Part shown: positions 11,732 through 19,514 of the stretch, piece by piece
Layout of the letters: each line of letters begins with the position of its first letter
Numbering within the stretch: the first letter of the stretch is position 1
From: Methylobacter tundripaludum SV96
GTDB taxonomy: Bacteria; Pseudomonadota; Gammaproteobacteria; Methylococcales; Methylomonadaceae
Length of the DNA stretch: 64,000 nt
Reading direction: 5' to 3'
Assembly (NCBI RefSeq): GCF_000190755.2
Contig: NZ_JH109153.1
Span: forward strand, 1,239,872 to 1,303,871
Translations under genes and position numbers: made by a program
The notes under the pieces: generated by a model
The model's database searches: none
Told to the model about the DNA's origin: nothing
Seen by the model: the letters and a program-made list of their open reading frames with translations, nothing else

Positions 11732-12394
11732 CTACGCATAATCAATGCGCTGCAACTCCAATTCGGCCTTCAGCCAGCGCAGCCAGCTGTCCATCCCTTC
11801 GCCGGTTTTGGCCGACAACGACAAGATCTTGATGCGCGGATTAACCTGTTTTGCGTACTGTATGCATTGCTCGCTGTCGAAATCCAGGTACGGCAACAGG
11901 TCGGTCTTGTTCAAAATCATCAAGTCGGCGGCATGGAACATGTCGGGGTATTTAATCGGTTTGTCCTCGCCTTCGGTGACCGACAAAATCACCACTTTAT
12001 GCGCTTCGCCGAGATCGAACGCCGAAGGGCAAACCAGGTTGCCGACGTTTTCGATGAACAACAGGCTGTGATTTTTCGGTTGCAGGGTTTCCAGCGCGTG
12101 ACCGACCCGGTGCGCATCAAGATGACAACCTTTGCCGGTATTGATCTGCAATGCCGGTACGCCGGTGGCGCGGATGCGCTCGGCGTCGCGGGCGGTTTGC
12201 TGGTCGCCTTCGATGACCGCGATGTCGAAGTCGTCTTTCAACCGGGCGATGGTTTCGGTCAGCAGCGTGGTCTTGCCGGAACCGGGACTGGACACCAGAT
12301 TTAACGCCAGCATGCCGCGCTCGCCGAAATAGCGGCGGTTTTCGGCGGCATAACGGTTATTCTTGGCCAGAATATCCTGTTCGATTTGCACCAT
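11732..12394 (-). CDS. hypB: HypB GTPase domain (nickel insertion), out of frame with its own N-terminus
   Basis: HypB is the GTPase that, with HypA, inserts nickel into the hydrogenase large subunit. The 220 residues from ATG 12394 contain the full G domain: P-loop [13 protein letters not shown], the Cys-His metal motif [31 protein letters not shown] and the specificity motif [10 protein letters not shown]. The frame is also open for a few codons upstream, coding [11 protein letters not shown], which is normal HypB sequence, but the genuine start of the gene at 12627 is in another frame (see the next entry). Translation may restart at 12394, 11 nt after the upstream stop, or the gene may be off. 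Confidence 0.93.
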
Positions 12395-12405
12395 CCGCTT
12401 TTGGC

Positions 12406-12626
<221 letters not shown>

Positions 12627-12627
<1 letters not shown>

Positions 12628-12968
12628 TATTCTACCTCCAGTTCTTTGATTCGCATTTGATCTCCGCTGTTGACCTGTAATTGATGGCTGCCGCAGTGCG
12701 GGCATAGATCGTATAACTGCTGCACAACCACATTGCGGCTGCACGGCATGCACCAGGCTTGGCCCGGTACTTCGATGATTTCAAGCTGGGCATGATCGGC
12801 CAGCGAGCCTTGCATCACGACATCGAAACTGAACCGTAGCGCCTCAGTCTCGACGCTGGCCAACGCGCCGATTTCCAGCCAAACCGTTTTGACTTTGCTG
12901 TATTGCTGGGCTTCGGCTTGCTGTTCCAATACCTGCAAAATGCTTTCGCAGAGCGACATTTCATGCAT
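12627..12968 (-). CDS. hypA: Hydrogenase nickel incorporation protein HypA
   Basis: HypA is the nickel metallochaperone partner of HypB. ATG 12968 is chosen because the protein then begins MHEMSLCESI, the invariant HypA N-terminus whose His2 binds nickel; an earlier in-frame ATG would add five residues derived from the upstream repeat. Residues near 70-95 hold the zinc site with CMPC and CPHC. The stop overlaps the hypB start by one base. Upstream sit three tandem copies of a 64-bp repeat, the first of which overlaps the start codon. Confidence 0.96.
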
Positions 12969-13152
12969 GGCTGTCCCTGCCATGCACCCTTCGGGCTAGT
13001 GCAAATCCGCTCCAGGCAGATTTGTCATGCATGGCTATCCCTGCCATGCACCCTTCGGGCCAGTGCAAATCTGCTCCAGGCGGATTTGTCATGCTGACTA
13101 TCCCTGCCACGCACCCTTCGGACCAGTGCAAATTTGTTCCAAACCAATTTGT
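12962..13152. repeat. Three tandem copies of a 64-bp two-hairpin repeat upstream of hypA
   Basis: Copies are 12962-13025, 13026-13089 and 13090-13152 (64, 64 and 63 bp), followed by the first bases of a fourth. On the minus strand each starts ACAAAT, contains an imperfect hairpin (CAAATC...GATTTG) and a second hairpin (GCATGGC...GCCATGC in copies 1 and 2; decayed in copy 3). A fourth, diverged copy in opposite orientation lies inside hupC at 18628-18690. The array fills the whole gap between hupK and hypA; the hupK stop codon and hypA start both lie in repeat sequence. Confidence 0.92.
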
Positions 13153-17927: not shown

Positions 17928-18812
17928 TCAATGCACGTCGTCTACCGGTTTATCATCCTTGAAAGTGCGCCAACCGGTCACTATCGACGACAAAATACTT
18001 TGCCTGGACAATTTATCCTCGCGCACCGCGACATAAATGTGAGCCAGCACAAAACAAACGATCAGCCACATAATCAAGTGATGCCAGCTGTGCAGGTTTT
18101 GGCTGTCGCCGAAAATAGGCAGCACCCAACTGCTGAACAGTGCATGTTGCCAGCTGCCCTGCCCTGTGCCTTCTCCGTACAACGCAAAGCCGGTGACGAT
18201 CATGAACACCATGCCCCAAACGAACACAAAATGCATAAACAGCACCGCCAAAGGATTATGGCCGATGTATTTTTTGGGCTCTTTGACCAGAAAGGCATAC
18301 CACAGTATTTCATGGCCGACGCCTTGCCAAAAATCCCGCGATAATAACGGCGGCAGGAAGATTTGCCGGGCATGCTCGTTACCGGCATACGCCCAGTAGG
18401 CCCGAAACAGCAGGCCTATCGCCAATAGGTATCCGGCGGCGAAATGCAGGAATCTGACGTAGCCCATTACGAAATGATCGGACGCTTCACCGCCCACCGT
18501 GGCCAATGGCGAGGCGATTAAATAGCCGGTTACGGTCAAGGCGACGATGACCAAGGCATTCAGGCTGTGCCAGAGCCGTACCGGTTTTTCGTAGACGTAA
18601 ACGGCATGTGCTCCTTCTCCCTCAGGGACAAATTCGCCGGGAGCGGATTTGCACTCGCCCGCAGGGTGCCGGACAGGAGAGTCCGGCATGATTAGGTCAG
18701 GATAAGGGGGAGTAAATAAATTCTTATTTCCCCTCACCCAACCCTCTCCCTCTGGAGAGGGCTTTGTACTGCTTGCGTCCACGGCATTGGATATTAAAGT
18801 TGGCTCAGTCAT
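17928..18812 (-). CDS. hupC: HupC, Ni/Fe-hydrogenase b-type cytochrome, with translated repeat insertion
   Basis: The membrane cytochrome b that passes electrons from HupSL to the quinone pool. From residue 68 it reads HAVYVYEKPVRLWHSLNALV, the conserved HupC start with a heme His, followed by four transmembrane helices with further His ligands (SWHHLIMWLIVCFVLAHIYV). The total of 294 residues exceeds the usual 230-250 because residues about 17-67, running from KPSPEGEG to VPEGEG, are encoded by palindromic repeat DNA (18611-18766, 156 bp, a multiple of three). The cytoplasmic N-terminus may tolerate this. The insertion could be read as a start artefact only if the true ATG lay downstream, but no ATG follows it before HAVYVYE. 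Confidence 0.93.
   Translation of the reverse strand: MTEPTLISNAVDASSTKPSPEGEGWVRGNKNLFTPPYPDLIMPDSPVRHPAGECKSAPGEFVPEGEGAHAVYVYEKPVRLWHSLNALVIVALTVTGYLIASPLATVGGEASDHFVMGYVRFLHFAAGYLLAIGLLFRAYWAYAGNEHARQIFLPPLLSRDFWQGVGHEILWYAFLVKEPKKYIGHNPLAVLFMHFVFVWGMVFMIVTGFALYGEGTGQGSWQHALFSSWVLPIFGDSQNLHSWHHLIMWLIVCFVLAHIYVAVREDKLSRQSILSSIVTGWRTFKDDKPVDDVH
18611..18766. repeat. Palindromic repeat inserted in frame within hupC
   Basis: The segment is bounded by CTCCTTCTCCCTCAGGG and CCCTCTCCCTCTGGAGAGGG. It contains at 18628-18690 a copy of the 64-bp repeat found three times at 12962-13152, in opposite orientation. The second hairpin reads GCCGGAC...GTCCGGC instead of GCATGGC...GCCATGC, both perfect stems. 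Confidence 0.85.
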
Positions 18813-18821
18813 GTCGGCTCC

Positions 18822-19514
18822 TTATGCGGCGAACAGCAACCAAGCGCCGATTACGCCGGTCAGGGTTCCGTAAACGCGGAGCAAACCAGCTGCATTGATG
18901 CGCCGTGCGATCAGGCCCAAAGCCAAACCGGAACAATGCAAAACCGCAGTGCCCGATATAATCCCTGCAGTGTAAGCGTATGCCGAAGCATCAAGCGGCA
19001 TTTCGCTGCCGTGCGCCAGTCCGTGCATTGCAGCAAAAGCTGCAATAGACGTTAAGATAATTATCGTTCCCACGCTCCGGCGTACCCTCTGGGGCATAAA
19101 TGGGAATGCAGTGTCAGACGCTCCAGCGTCCCACCGCAACGCTGGAGCGTTGCAAACTGAATTTCCACGCCGGAGCGTGGGAACTATTGAAGTCATACCG
19201 AAGCTAAGCGCCATGCCGACGAACAACAATGAGACCAGAATTGCCGTTTCGACATAAGCGAAACCAATCCCGGCTAAGCCGAGCAGAGCCCCAGCCGTCA
19301 TGAATAACAAAAATACGCCAATCGCCTGCTGGGCAAGCAAACGGCTTTGGCTGCTCGCCCATAAGCCCAAACCCAGCATCACCAAAAAATGATCCAGACC
19401 TAAAAACGGATGCTGAAAACCGTGGCCGAAGCCATCGGTAGGCAACAAGCCGGTATGGGCCAATGCGGCCTGGGAAAACGCGATAAGACCGGCAACCACT
19501 ATAATTTTTTTCAT
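18822..19514 (-). CDS. hupE: HupE/UreJ family nickel-permease-like membrane protein, with translated repeat insertion
   Basis: HupE-type proteins facilitate nickel entry into the cell. ATG 19514 is chosen because it follows AGGAG and gives a signal-like start, MKKIIVVAGLIAFSQAALAH. The family motif HPFLGLDHFLVMLGLGLWA and the second motif AMHGLAHGSEMP are present, with about six hydrophobic segments. Between them, about 40 residues (VPTLRRGNSV to RRSVGT) have no counterpart in the family and are encoded by a 119-bp palindromic repeat at 19066-19184. They fall in the loop before the HGLAHG helix. Without them the length would be the usual 190. Confidence 0.92.
   Translation of the reverse strand: MKKIIVVAGLIAFSQAALAHTGLLPTDGFGHGFQHPFLGLDHFLVMLGLGLWASSQSRLLAQQAIGVFLLFMTAGALLGLAGIGFAYVETAILVSLLFVGMALSFGMTSIVPTLRRGNSVCNAPALRWDAGASDTAFPFMPQRVRRSVGTIIILTSIAAFAAMHGLAHGSEMPLDASAYAYTAGIISGTAVLHCSGLALGLIARRINAAGLLRVYGTLTGVIGAWLLFAA
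19066..19184. repeat. 119-bp palindromic repeat inserted in hupE
   Basis: Perfect 18-bp terminal inverted repeats, GTTCCCACGCTCCGGCGT at 19066-19083 and its reverse complement at 19167-19184, enclose an inner inverted repeat ACGCTCCAGCGT/ACGCTGGAGCGT (19118-19129 and 19139-19150). Relatives with GTTCCCACGC ends occur at 37263-37390 and 49988-50097. Confidence 0.9.

Follow-up and report, generated by a model that had tools for sequence, protein, structure and literature searches.

An in-frame insertion in the hydrogenase gene hupC of Methylobacter tundripaludum, probably a relic of an IS4-family miniature transposon

Introduction

Why does the cytochrome subunit of a hydrogenase carry, ahead of its conserved domain, a stretch of residues that looks like a mobile repeat? 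The question is raised by hupC (17928..18812, minus strand), which encodes a Ni-Fe hydrogenase b-type cytochrome subunit of 294 amino acids (PF01292 and TIGR02125 matches) and lies in a 64,000-nucleotide stretch of the Methylobacter tundripaludum SV96 genome, hereafter the window. A first-pass annotation had proposed that residues about 17-67 derive from a 156-bp palindromic repeat inserted in frame, with a core that is a copy of a 64-bp repeat beside hypA, and had likened it to the palindromic elements of Rickettsia. In the portions of the sources used here (PMC2229807; PMC3767692), such protein-coding elements are treated chiefly in connection with Rickettsia and Wolbachia; the hosts in the present case are free-living methanotrophs. 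Our preferred reading, to which we give a probability of about 0.84, is that the hupC segment is a relic of a miniature transposon of the IS4 family, here called B, whose frame-keeping insertions survive at tolerant loops. Comparisons were made with related genomes, many of them draft or metagenome assemblies; genomes and loci carry G and L numbers, G000 being the window's own genome (4.85 Mb).

Results

Extent and Build of the hupC Insertion

In G000 the 156-bp segment (18611-18766) matches 15 places, itself included, which fall into two families, and at no other place is it matched from end to end. Family A corresponds to positions 17-81 of the query (best other copy 89% identical, E 5e-18) and family B to positions ~84-156 (98% over 47 bp, E 2e-16). 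Since the matches split into two sets, the segment is composite: a 65-bp palindromic repeat, A, lies inside a larger element, B. The two families exclude a single simple repeat, and the E-values a chance match; a known RNA family was likewise rejected, with no Rfam match at the gathering score between window positions 12000 and 20000. The bounds of the insert were set against insert-free relatives (L011 and L036), in which MTEPTSTSVP is followed directly by HAVYVYEK. In alignments of DNA and protein with relatives' HupC, the whole in-frame insertion, B with nested A, occupies 18609..18788 on the minus strand. Thus, the proposal of an in-frame, stop-free repeat in hupC holds, whereas its size was underestimated, the insertion spanning 180 bp, 60 codons and residues 9-68 rather than 156 bp and about 51 residues.

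Four parts can be told apart, all on the minus strand. The left terminal inverted repeat of B, from which the insert begins at 18788, is diverged (AATGCCGTGGACGCAAGC at 18771..18788, against the usual form AATRCTGTTGACTTAAGC in full-length copies). The left arm and middle of B follow (18692..18770, protein ...KPSPEGEGWVRGNKNLFTPPYPDL), 90% identical over 69 bp to a G000 copy at C2:456608 and read in the same peptide frame as the 31 copies in open reading frames described below. Next comes the nested repeat A (18627..18691; RNA fold z -3.2), which has A-type matches at 15 other G000 places. The right arm of B (18609..18626, PEGEGA) closes the insert, which, set beside complete copies (e.g. L106), lacks the right terminal inverted repeat. 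A profile of B is matched by the hupC copy, from its left end, over profile positions 1-108. The kinship of the core with the repeat beside hypA, suggested at first pass, is borne out: A is 80% identical to that 64-bp repeat over 65 bp (E 2e-9) and 84% complementary to it over 51 bp. Three tandem A-type repeats (12961..13151, no strand assigned; repeat family D3, ORF list) lie between hypA and the next upstream gene, whose stop is at 13152, and the first of them overlaps hypA's ORF at its 5' end. Nearby (12380-12760), a His-rich 12-bp tandem repeat ORF (12406-12753) and a HypB-like GTPase ORF (from 12394) run in different frames, with a 5-bp repeat (GACGC x3) between them, which may reflect a frameshift, a contingency repeat or an assembly error.

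Few relatives have an insert at this point. Of 25 HupC loci, the nearest named ones belonging to Methylobacter and related methanotrophs, 23 have no insert at all, a short N-terminus leading straight into the VYV(Y/W)E start of the cytochrome, and two have, at the position of the window's insert, one that is shorter or of another kind: in Methylobacter sp. STA_13 (L009) another repeat lies between the outer arms of B, and M. tundripaludum OWC-G53F (L010) has the outer arms only. The window form occurs at none of the 25; six further close orthologues from the genus search look identical to loci among them and were not counted again. A conserved HupC domain was therefore rejected as the identity of the segment, and neither of the outcomes named with the original proposal as counting against it, a segment shared by relatives as conserved sequence or a genome with no other copies, was observed, further copies being present, some of them in coding frames. 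The window, STA_13 and OWC-G53F have the left end of B and its right junction in common, around three different inner sequences; hence the simplest reading is one insertion in hupC followed by internal change.

Element B as a Miniature Transposon

Full-length B measures 156 bp, with inverted ends of ~19 bp and 9-bp target duplications. Fifteen unbroken copies align over ~152 bp between the inverted ends AATRCTGTTGACTTAAGC...GCTTAAGTCAACAGYATT, and 29 copies, nested forms counted, have both ends. For each copy, two bases outside either end were skipped and the following 9 bp of the two flanks were compared: they agree at no fewer than 7 positions in 18 of these 29 copies (two of the 18 being orthologous NRPS copies), against 10 of 812 controls in which flanks of different copies were paired (Fisher 7e-23), while 11 of the 29 lack a clear duplication. 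An empty site completes the picture. A partial second copy of selD in G000 has the 156-bp B between GTGCCGAGG and GTGCCGATG, with the target on both sides and one mismatch; the same site is single and empty in all 10 other readable genomes (e.g. GTGCCGATG in L275) and in the intact selD of G000. This B-bearing partial duplicate is perhaps a pseudogene. The locus itself (L106:1249-1941 and L285) shows a 786-aa open frame with the intact selD and, ~1.2 kb on, the partial second copy with its MITE. End-to-end copies of B thus have the terminal inverted repeats and, in most cases, the fixed 9-bp duplication of a MITE. The hupC copy keeps the left end only and has no visible target duplication, so its origin by transposition is argued from homology with these complete copies.

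Copies without inverted ends are common in G000. Its 24 matches to B fall at about 21 distinct places, 16 of which reach neither inverted end; by the profile, five reach an end, and four of the five lie in long ORFs, namely HupC, SMC, a nitrogenase-like gene and the selD duplicate. Across the family, a profile of the B peptide has matches in 58 of 201 genomes at E<=1e-6, representing 17 of 29 genera, and several of those outside the genus fall in long open frames.

Possible Hot Spots of Insertion

The window holds a second, different in-frame palindromic insertion, of 41 codons, in hupE, the gene adjoining hupC (19068..19190, minus strand; alignment with relatives' HupE). It has an RNA fold z of -7.9 and 39 matches in G000; HupE itself has no NCBIfam match. 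The same HupE loop carries an insert in 5 of 16 other loci and none in the remaining 11, with at least two repeat types present. The hinge loop of SMC, readable in 22 of the 23 genomes of the genus, varies as well: B is found in four (once with a nested C, another palindromic repeat), a C-type repeat in one, other palindromes in seven and a plain loop in ten, the assignment to repeat types being by eye for both SMC and HupE. In all 12 insert-bearing genomes the hinge insert is in frame (L294-L317), and the B copies among them lack the right end. CobN contains B in G004 and G022 and the hupE-type repeat in G000, at what looks like the same site.

Do such sites reflect single old insertions? Across species, silent divergence between same-site copies is lower in the element than in its host in 9 of 9 pairs (dS 0.03-0.34 vs 0.29-0.83). 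Moreover, in a comparison of 73 B copies, from which the gapped HupC copy dropped out, copies sharing a site in SMC (0.89-0.93), CobN (0.94) or RlmL (0.91) show no greater similarity to one another than to copies at other sites (reaching 0.96, 0.97 and 0.93, respectively). Neither pattern is what simple descent predicts; candidate causes are re-insertion, gene conversion and recent arrival. It is possible, if short of an even chance, that gene conversion or re-insertion among dispersed copies rewrites these sites, in place of one old insertion and its decay, and the mixture of repeats in the SMC loop would fit such rewriting. On the other hand, the HsdM copies group by site (0.98 to each other, at most 0.94 to copies at other genic sites), the outer hupC junctions are common to three relatives, and the similarities are weak evidence, coming from 108-bp alignments in which deletions obscure the NRPS and no-Pfam pairs (0.80, 0.59). 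Such rewriting would add turnover to the miniature-transposon reading more than oppose it.

A Candidate Mobilizer

The 19-bp end CAATRCTGTTGACTTAAGC is present, with at most one mismatch, in 12 of the 23 genomes of the genus, and in two sister genomes, G010 and G014, it stands beside transposase sequence. In G010, an ORF that begins 70 bp inward from the end codes for 425 aa of an IS4-family transposase (NF033592, 168 bits against a cut-off of 115; also PF01609), cut on its 3' side by a gene for a REP-associated tyrosine transposase, or RAYT (L250:959-1501), which matches NF047646 though the fragment has no PF01797 match. On two G014 contigs, the frame for the C-terminal part of a related transposase continues into the 19-bp end, where its stop codon lies; on a third contig the end precedes the N-terminal side of a transposase, 82% identical over 135 aa to the G010 protein and without a Pfam match over that length. 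No insertion sequence has both ends on one contig, the G010 copy being cut by the RAYT gene and the G014 contigs ending inside the element. The same ends also enclose other short cargo in five pairs, two of them with a clear duplication (L252 and L265). We infer from these common ends that an IS4-family enzyme moved B. In G000, the C-terminal 155 aa of the transposase has no match at E<=1e-20, an absence that counts against this reading and also fits old, decaying B copies such as that of hupC.

A different engine has to be weighed. REP-type movement by RAYT tyrosine transposases might have dispersed A and C together with the palindromic core of B, the ends of B being incidental. G000 does contain 11 matches to Y1 transposases (10 above the Pfam cut-off), a RAYT gene sits within the very IS4 copy of G010, most matches to B in G000 stop short of both inverted ends, and the right end is missing from the hupC and SMC copies. 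Yet the 9-bp duplications stand at a fixed distance from the ends of B in 18 of the 29 complete copies, and an IS4 element bears those same ends, which makes REP-type movement of B unlikely.

Host Genes, Reading Frame, and Translation

Canonical B is stop-free in only one of six frames, in which it reads approximately NTVDLSSTKPSPEGEGWVRGNQNKEESLFxSPHPNLLPEGEGAxxLKSTV. Among the matches listed, 31 copies lie in long ORFs, HupC included, in 22 host contexts and nine genomes, and 31 of 31 use this single open frame, a uniformity partly built in, as counting a copy as in an ORF requires a frame running through it. The sample is biased, 20 regions having been chosen for long open frames and 40 mainly for matches reaching the ends of B; it leaves out core-like matches in or beside ORFs (L206, L132 and L133), L121's second frame, and, in the HypF of L116, a B-like arm of 44 bp with a different reading frame. 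By Pfam, the hosts are RlmL-like, CN-hydrolase, nitrogenase-like, CobN/Mg-chelatase, MutL, HsdM, COX1, NRPS and PKS proteins; SMC (hinge), HypF, topoisomerase, RecD, RecC, GH94 and a cytochrome c/TPR protein; and a GspH-like protein, a SelD-like protein and one protein without a Pfam match. The names SMC, MutL, HypF, RlmL, KsgA, HrpA, NifE and SelD are putative assignments based on the Pfam matches. A genus search with the HupC protein matched residues ~10-72 also inside long open frames of other genes, and it is these that show the peptide given above. Nitrogenase-like genes seem to bear B near the C-terminus in several species (L189, L204, L100 and L121).

Element and duplication together amount to 165 bp (156+9), or 55 codons, so that an insertion leaves the host frame unshifted; the nested repeats of typical composites (lengths 215, 200 and 263) contribute 63 bp in the case of A and 48 bp in that of C, which keeps the frame too. 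Length is divisible by three in 12 of 12 end-to-end copies in ORFs and in 9 of 17 outside (p 0.009; with orthologues merged 9 of 9, p 0.02), a test that is partly circular, since frame-breaking copies would never count as lying in an ORF. Three of the 17 outside copies are at or between long open runs: in L189 and L204, open frames of 465 and 481 aa have B at their 3' ends and stop within it, and in L187 the element is flanked by open runs of 98 and 737 aa. Not all copies are harmless, therefore, and some terminate genes.

Repeat A behaves less uniformly. The window's copy is stop-free in five of six frames, and the first hypA-side repeat in three. In G000, A lies in frame in eight Pfam-supported ORFs (GDPD, an ABC transporter, HrcA, a HrpA-like helicase, a KsgA-like rRNA methylase, two YhdP stretches and hupC), in four frame and orientation combinations; a ninth case, at the start of a glucokinase, is uncertain. 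Since A is open in five frames and used in four combinations, no single peptide is favored, and its usage speaks for tolerance of any open frame. The two YhdP stretches (L008 and L095, at G000:C1:2670232 and 2667514) contain one A repeat each, 2.7 kb from one another and oppositely oriented, with both frames matching YhdP; they are probably one gene.

Could the extra peptide nevertheless be kept for a function, e.g. as a flexible linker, a docking tail or with a role in hydrogenase assembly? Conserved genes retain their insertions, the B peptides of different hosts are similar (79% mean column identity, 10 copies), genic copies resemble one another more (0.86, 28 copies) than others do (0.79, 45 copies), and dS is lower in the element than in its flanks. 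However, dN/dS between orthologues is far higher in the elements (0.41-0.87) than in the host flanks (0.05-0.18; nine pairs from six genes, non-independent, as four of the nine are SMC). The host proteins are also unrelated, A yields unrelated peptides from its four combinations, the inner sequence in hupC takes three forms in three relatives, and 23 of 25 HupC relatives do without an insert. We therefore regard a retained function as quite improbable.

Translation through the hupC insert is plausible, given that the ATG at 18812 has AAGGAG five bases 5' of it, that relatives have a comparable start context, and that the cytochrome domain begins at residue 72-73, after the insert (PF01292 over residues 73-280, E 9e-28; TIGR02125 over residues 72-285, 217 bits). 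In the predicted structure, a weak model (mean pLDDT 58, pTM 0.39), residues 1-74 are disordered (pLDDT ~30), and the first helix spans residues 75-100. That the insert is instead untranslated, the true start lying further downstream, is hardly credible and was rejected: an ATG (M43) does exist inside the insert, but M1 has a start context (TAAGGAGCCGACATG) similar in relatives, no comparable ribosome site is apparent by eye ahead of M43, initiation there would still leave part of the insert translated, and the next Met, 116, lies beyond the first predicted helix.

Discussion

In this study, we examined an insertion in the N-terminal tail of HupC, and the evidence favors a model in which B transposed into hupC in an ancestor common to the window species and its two insert-bearing relatives. 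The interior would have diverged later, with A nested here, another repeat in STA_13 and the outer arms only in OWC-G53F. Each insertion would add 156 bp plus a 9-bp duplication, and in one phase and orientation out of six would be read through without a stop; selection would remove the other outcomes, so that the copies left are those read through in tails, linkers and loops where extra residues do no harm. The peptide so added would be translated and tolerated, probably without a function of its own. The 55-codon total, the one strand stop-free in one frame, and the frame-keeping lengths of A (+63 bp) and C (+48 bp) invite a bolder and rather doubtful suggestion, that B has itself been shaped by selection to be harmless in genes, and that insertions gather in a few loops, each overwritten repeatedly by different palindromes. 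If so, methanotroph proteins would bear a continuously rewritten, transposon-derived layer, as in the SMC hinge, the HupE loop and CobN. For annotation there is a plainer warning: extra stretches in SMC, HupC, MutL or HypF of these methanotrophs can be transposon sequence.

How does B relate to known systems? With IS4-family insertion sequences, which have a DDE transposase (NF033592 and PF01609), it has the 19-bp ends in common, whereas B contains no transposase and its interior consists of REP-like palindromes. REP elements are short palindromes, as are A, C and the hupE type, and RAYT genes are present here; the present repeats, which may be called REP-like in form, are found within coding genes as well, and within the MITE. 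Bacterial MITEs with in-frame fusions (ERIC/RU, YPAL, Correia and the Coxiella QMITE) resemble B in being non-autonomous and short, with inverted ends, and in being sometimes read through (PMC2229807; PMC5896051). Their fusions, in the descriptions cited, involve mostly putative or hypothetical proteins or lie near gene ends; those of B include the interiors of SMC, CobN, RlmL, MutL and HypF, in one uniform frame. As described in the part of the source used, the MITE in hupL of Candidatus Thiomargarita nelsonii is likewise dispersed and sits in a hydrogenase gene, with 19-bp inverted repeats beside 10-bp direct repeats, but it disrupts an incomplete hupL, with no read-through and no parent insertion sequence found (PMC4853749). 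In the literature searched, mainly open-access, no title or abstract opening concerned coding MITEs in methanotrophs.

The closest parallel is with the palindromic elements of Rickettsia (RPE) and Wolbachia, which are, in the passages available to us, palindromes of ~100-150 bp with an open frame, fused in frame within exposed regions of unrelated conserved genes (PMC10969869; PMC2229807; PMC3767692; PMC4224334). B is alike in these respects, and the analogy drawn at first pass stands as one of behavior, with 31 copies in frame in 22 host contexts; membership does not follow, the host being no Rickettsia and the nearest HupC loci belonging to Methylobacter and related methanotrophs rather than to Rickettsiales. 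Set against RPE, compared by description, B differs in its free-living methanotroph hosts, ends in common with an IS4 transposase element, 9-bp duplications, 165-bp frame-neutral insertion and nested repeats. For RPE, the consulted part of a 2007 review lists target duplication and matching transposase as unknown ('?') in its Table 1 and describes the mobilizer as lacking experimental support (PMC2229807), and insertion hot spots were left open in the text consulted (PMC3767692). The candidate mobilizer and the target duplications described here are new relative to that review. Because B has an empty site, 9-bp duplications and ends common to an IS4 element, and because some species have inserts that others lack, the questions of mobilizer and of hot spots become directly testable.
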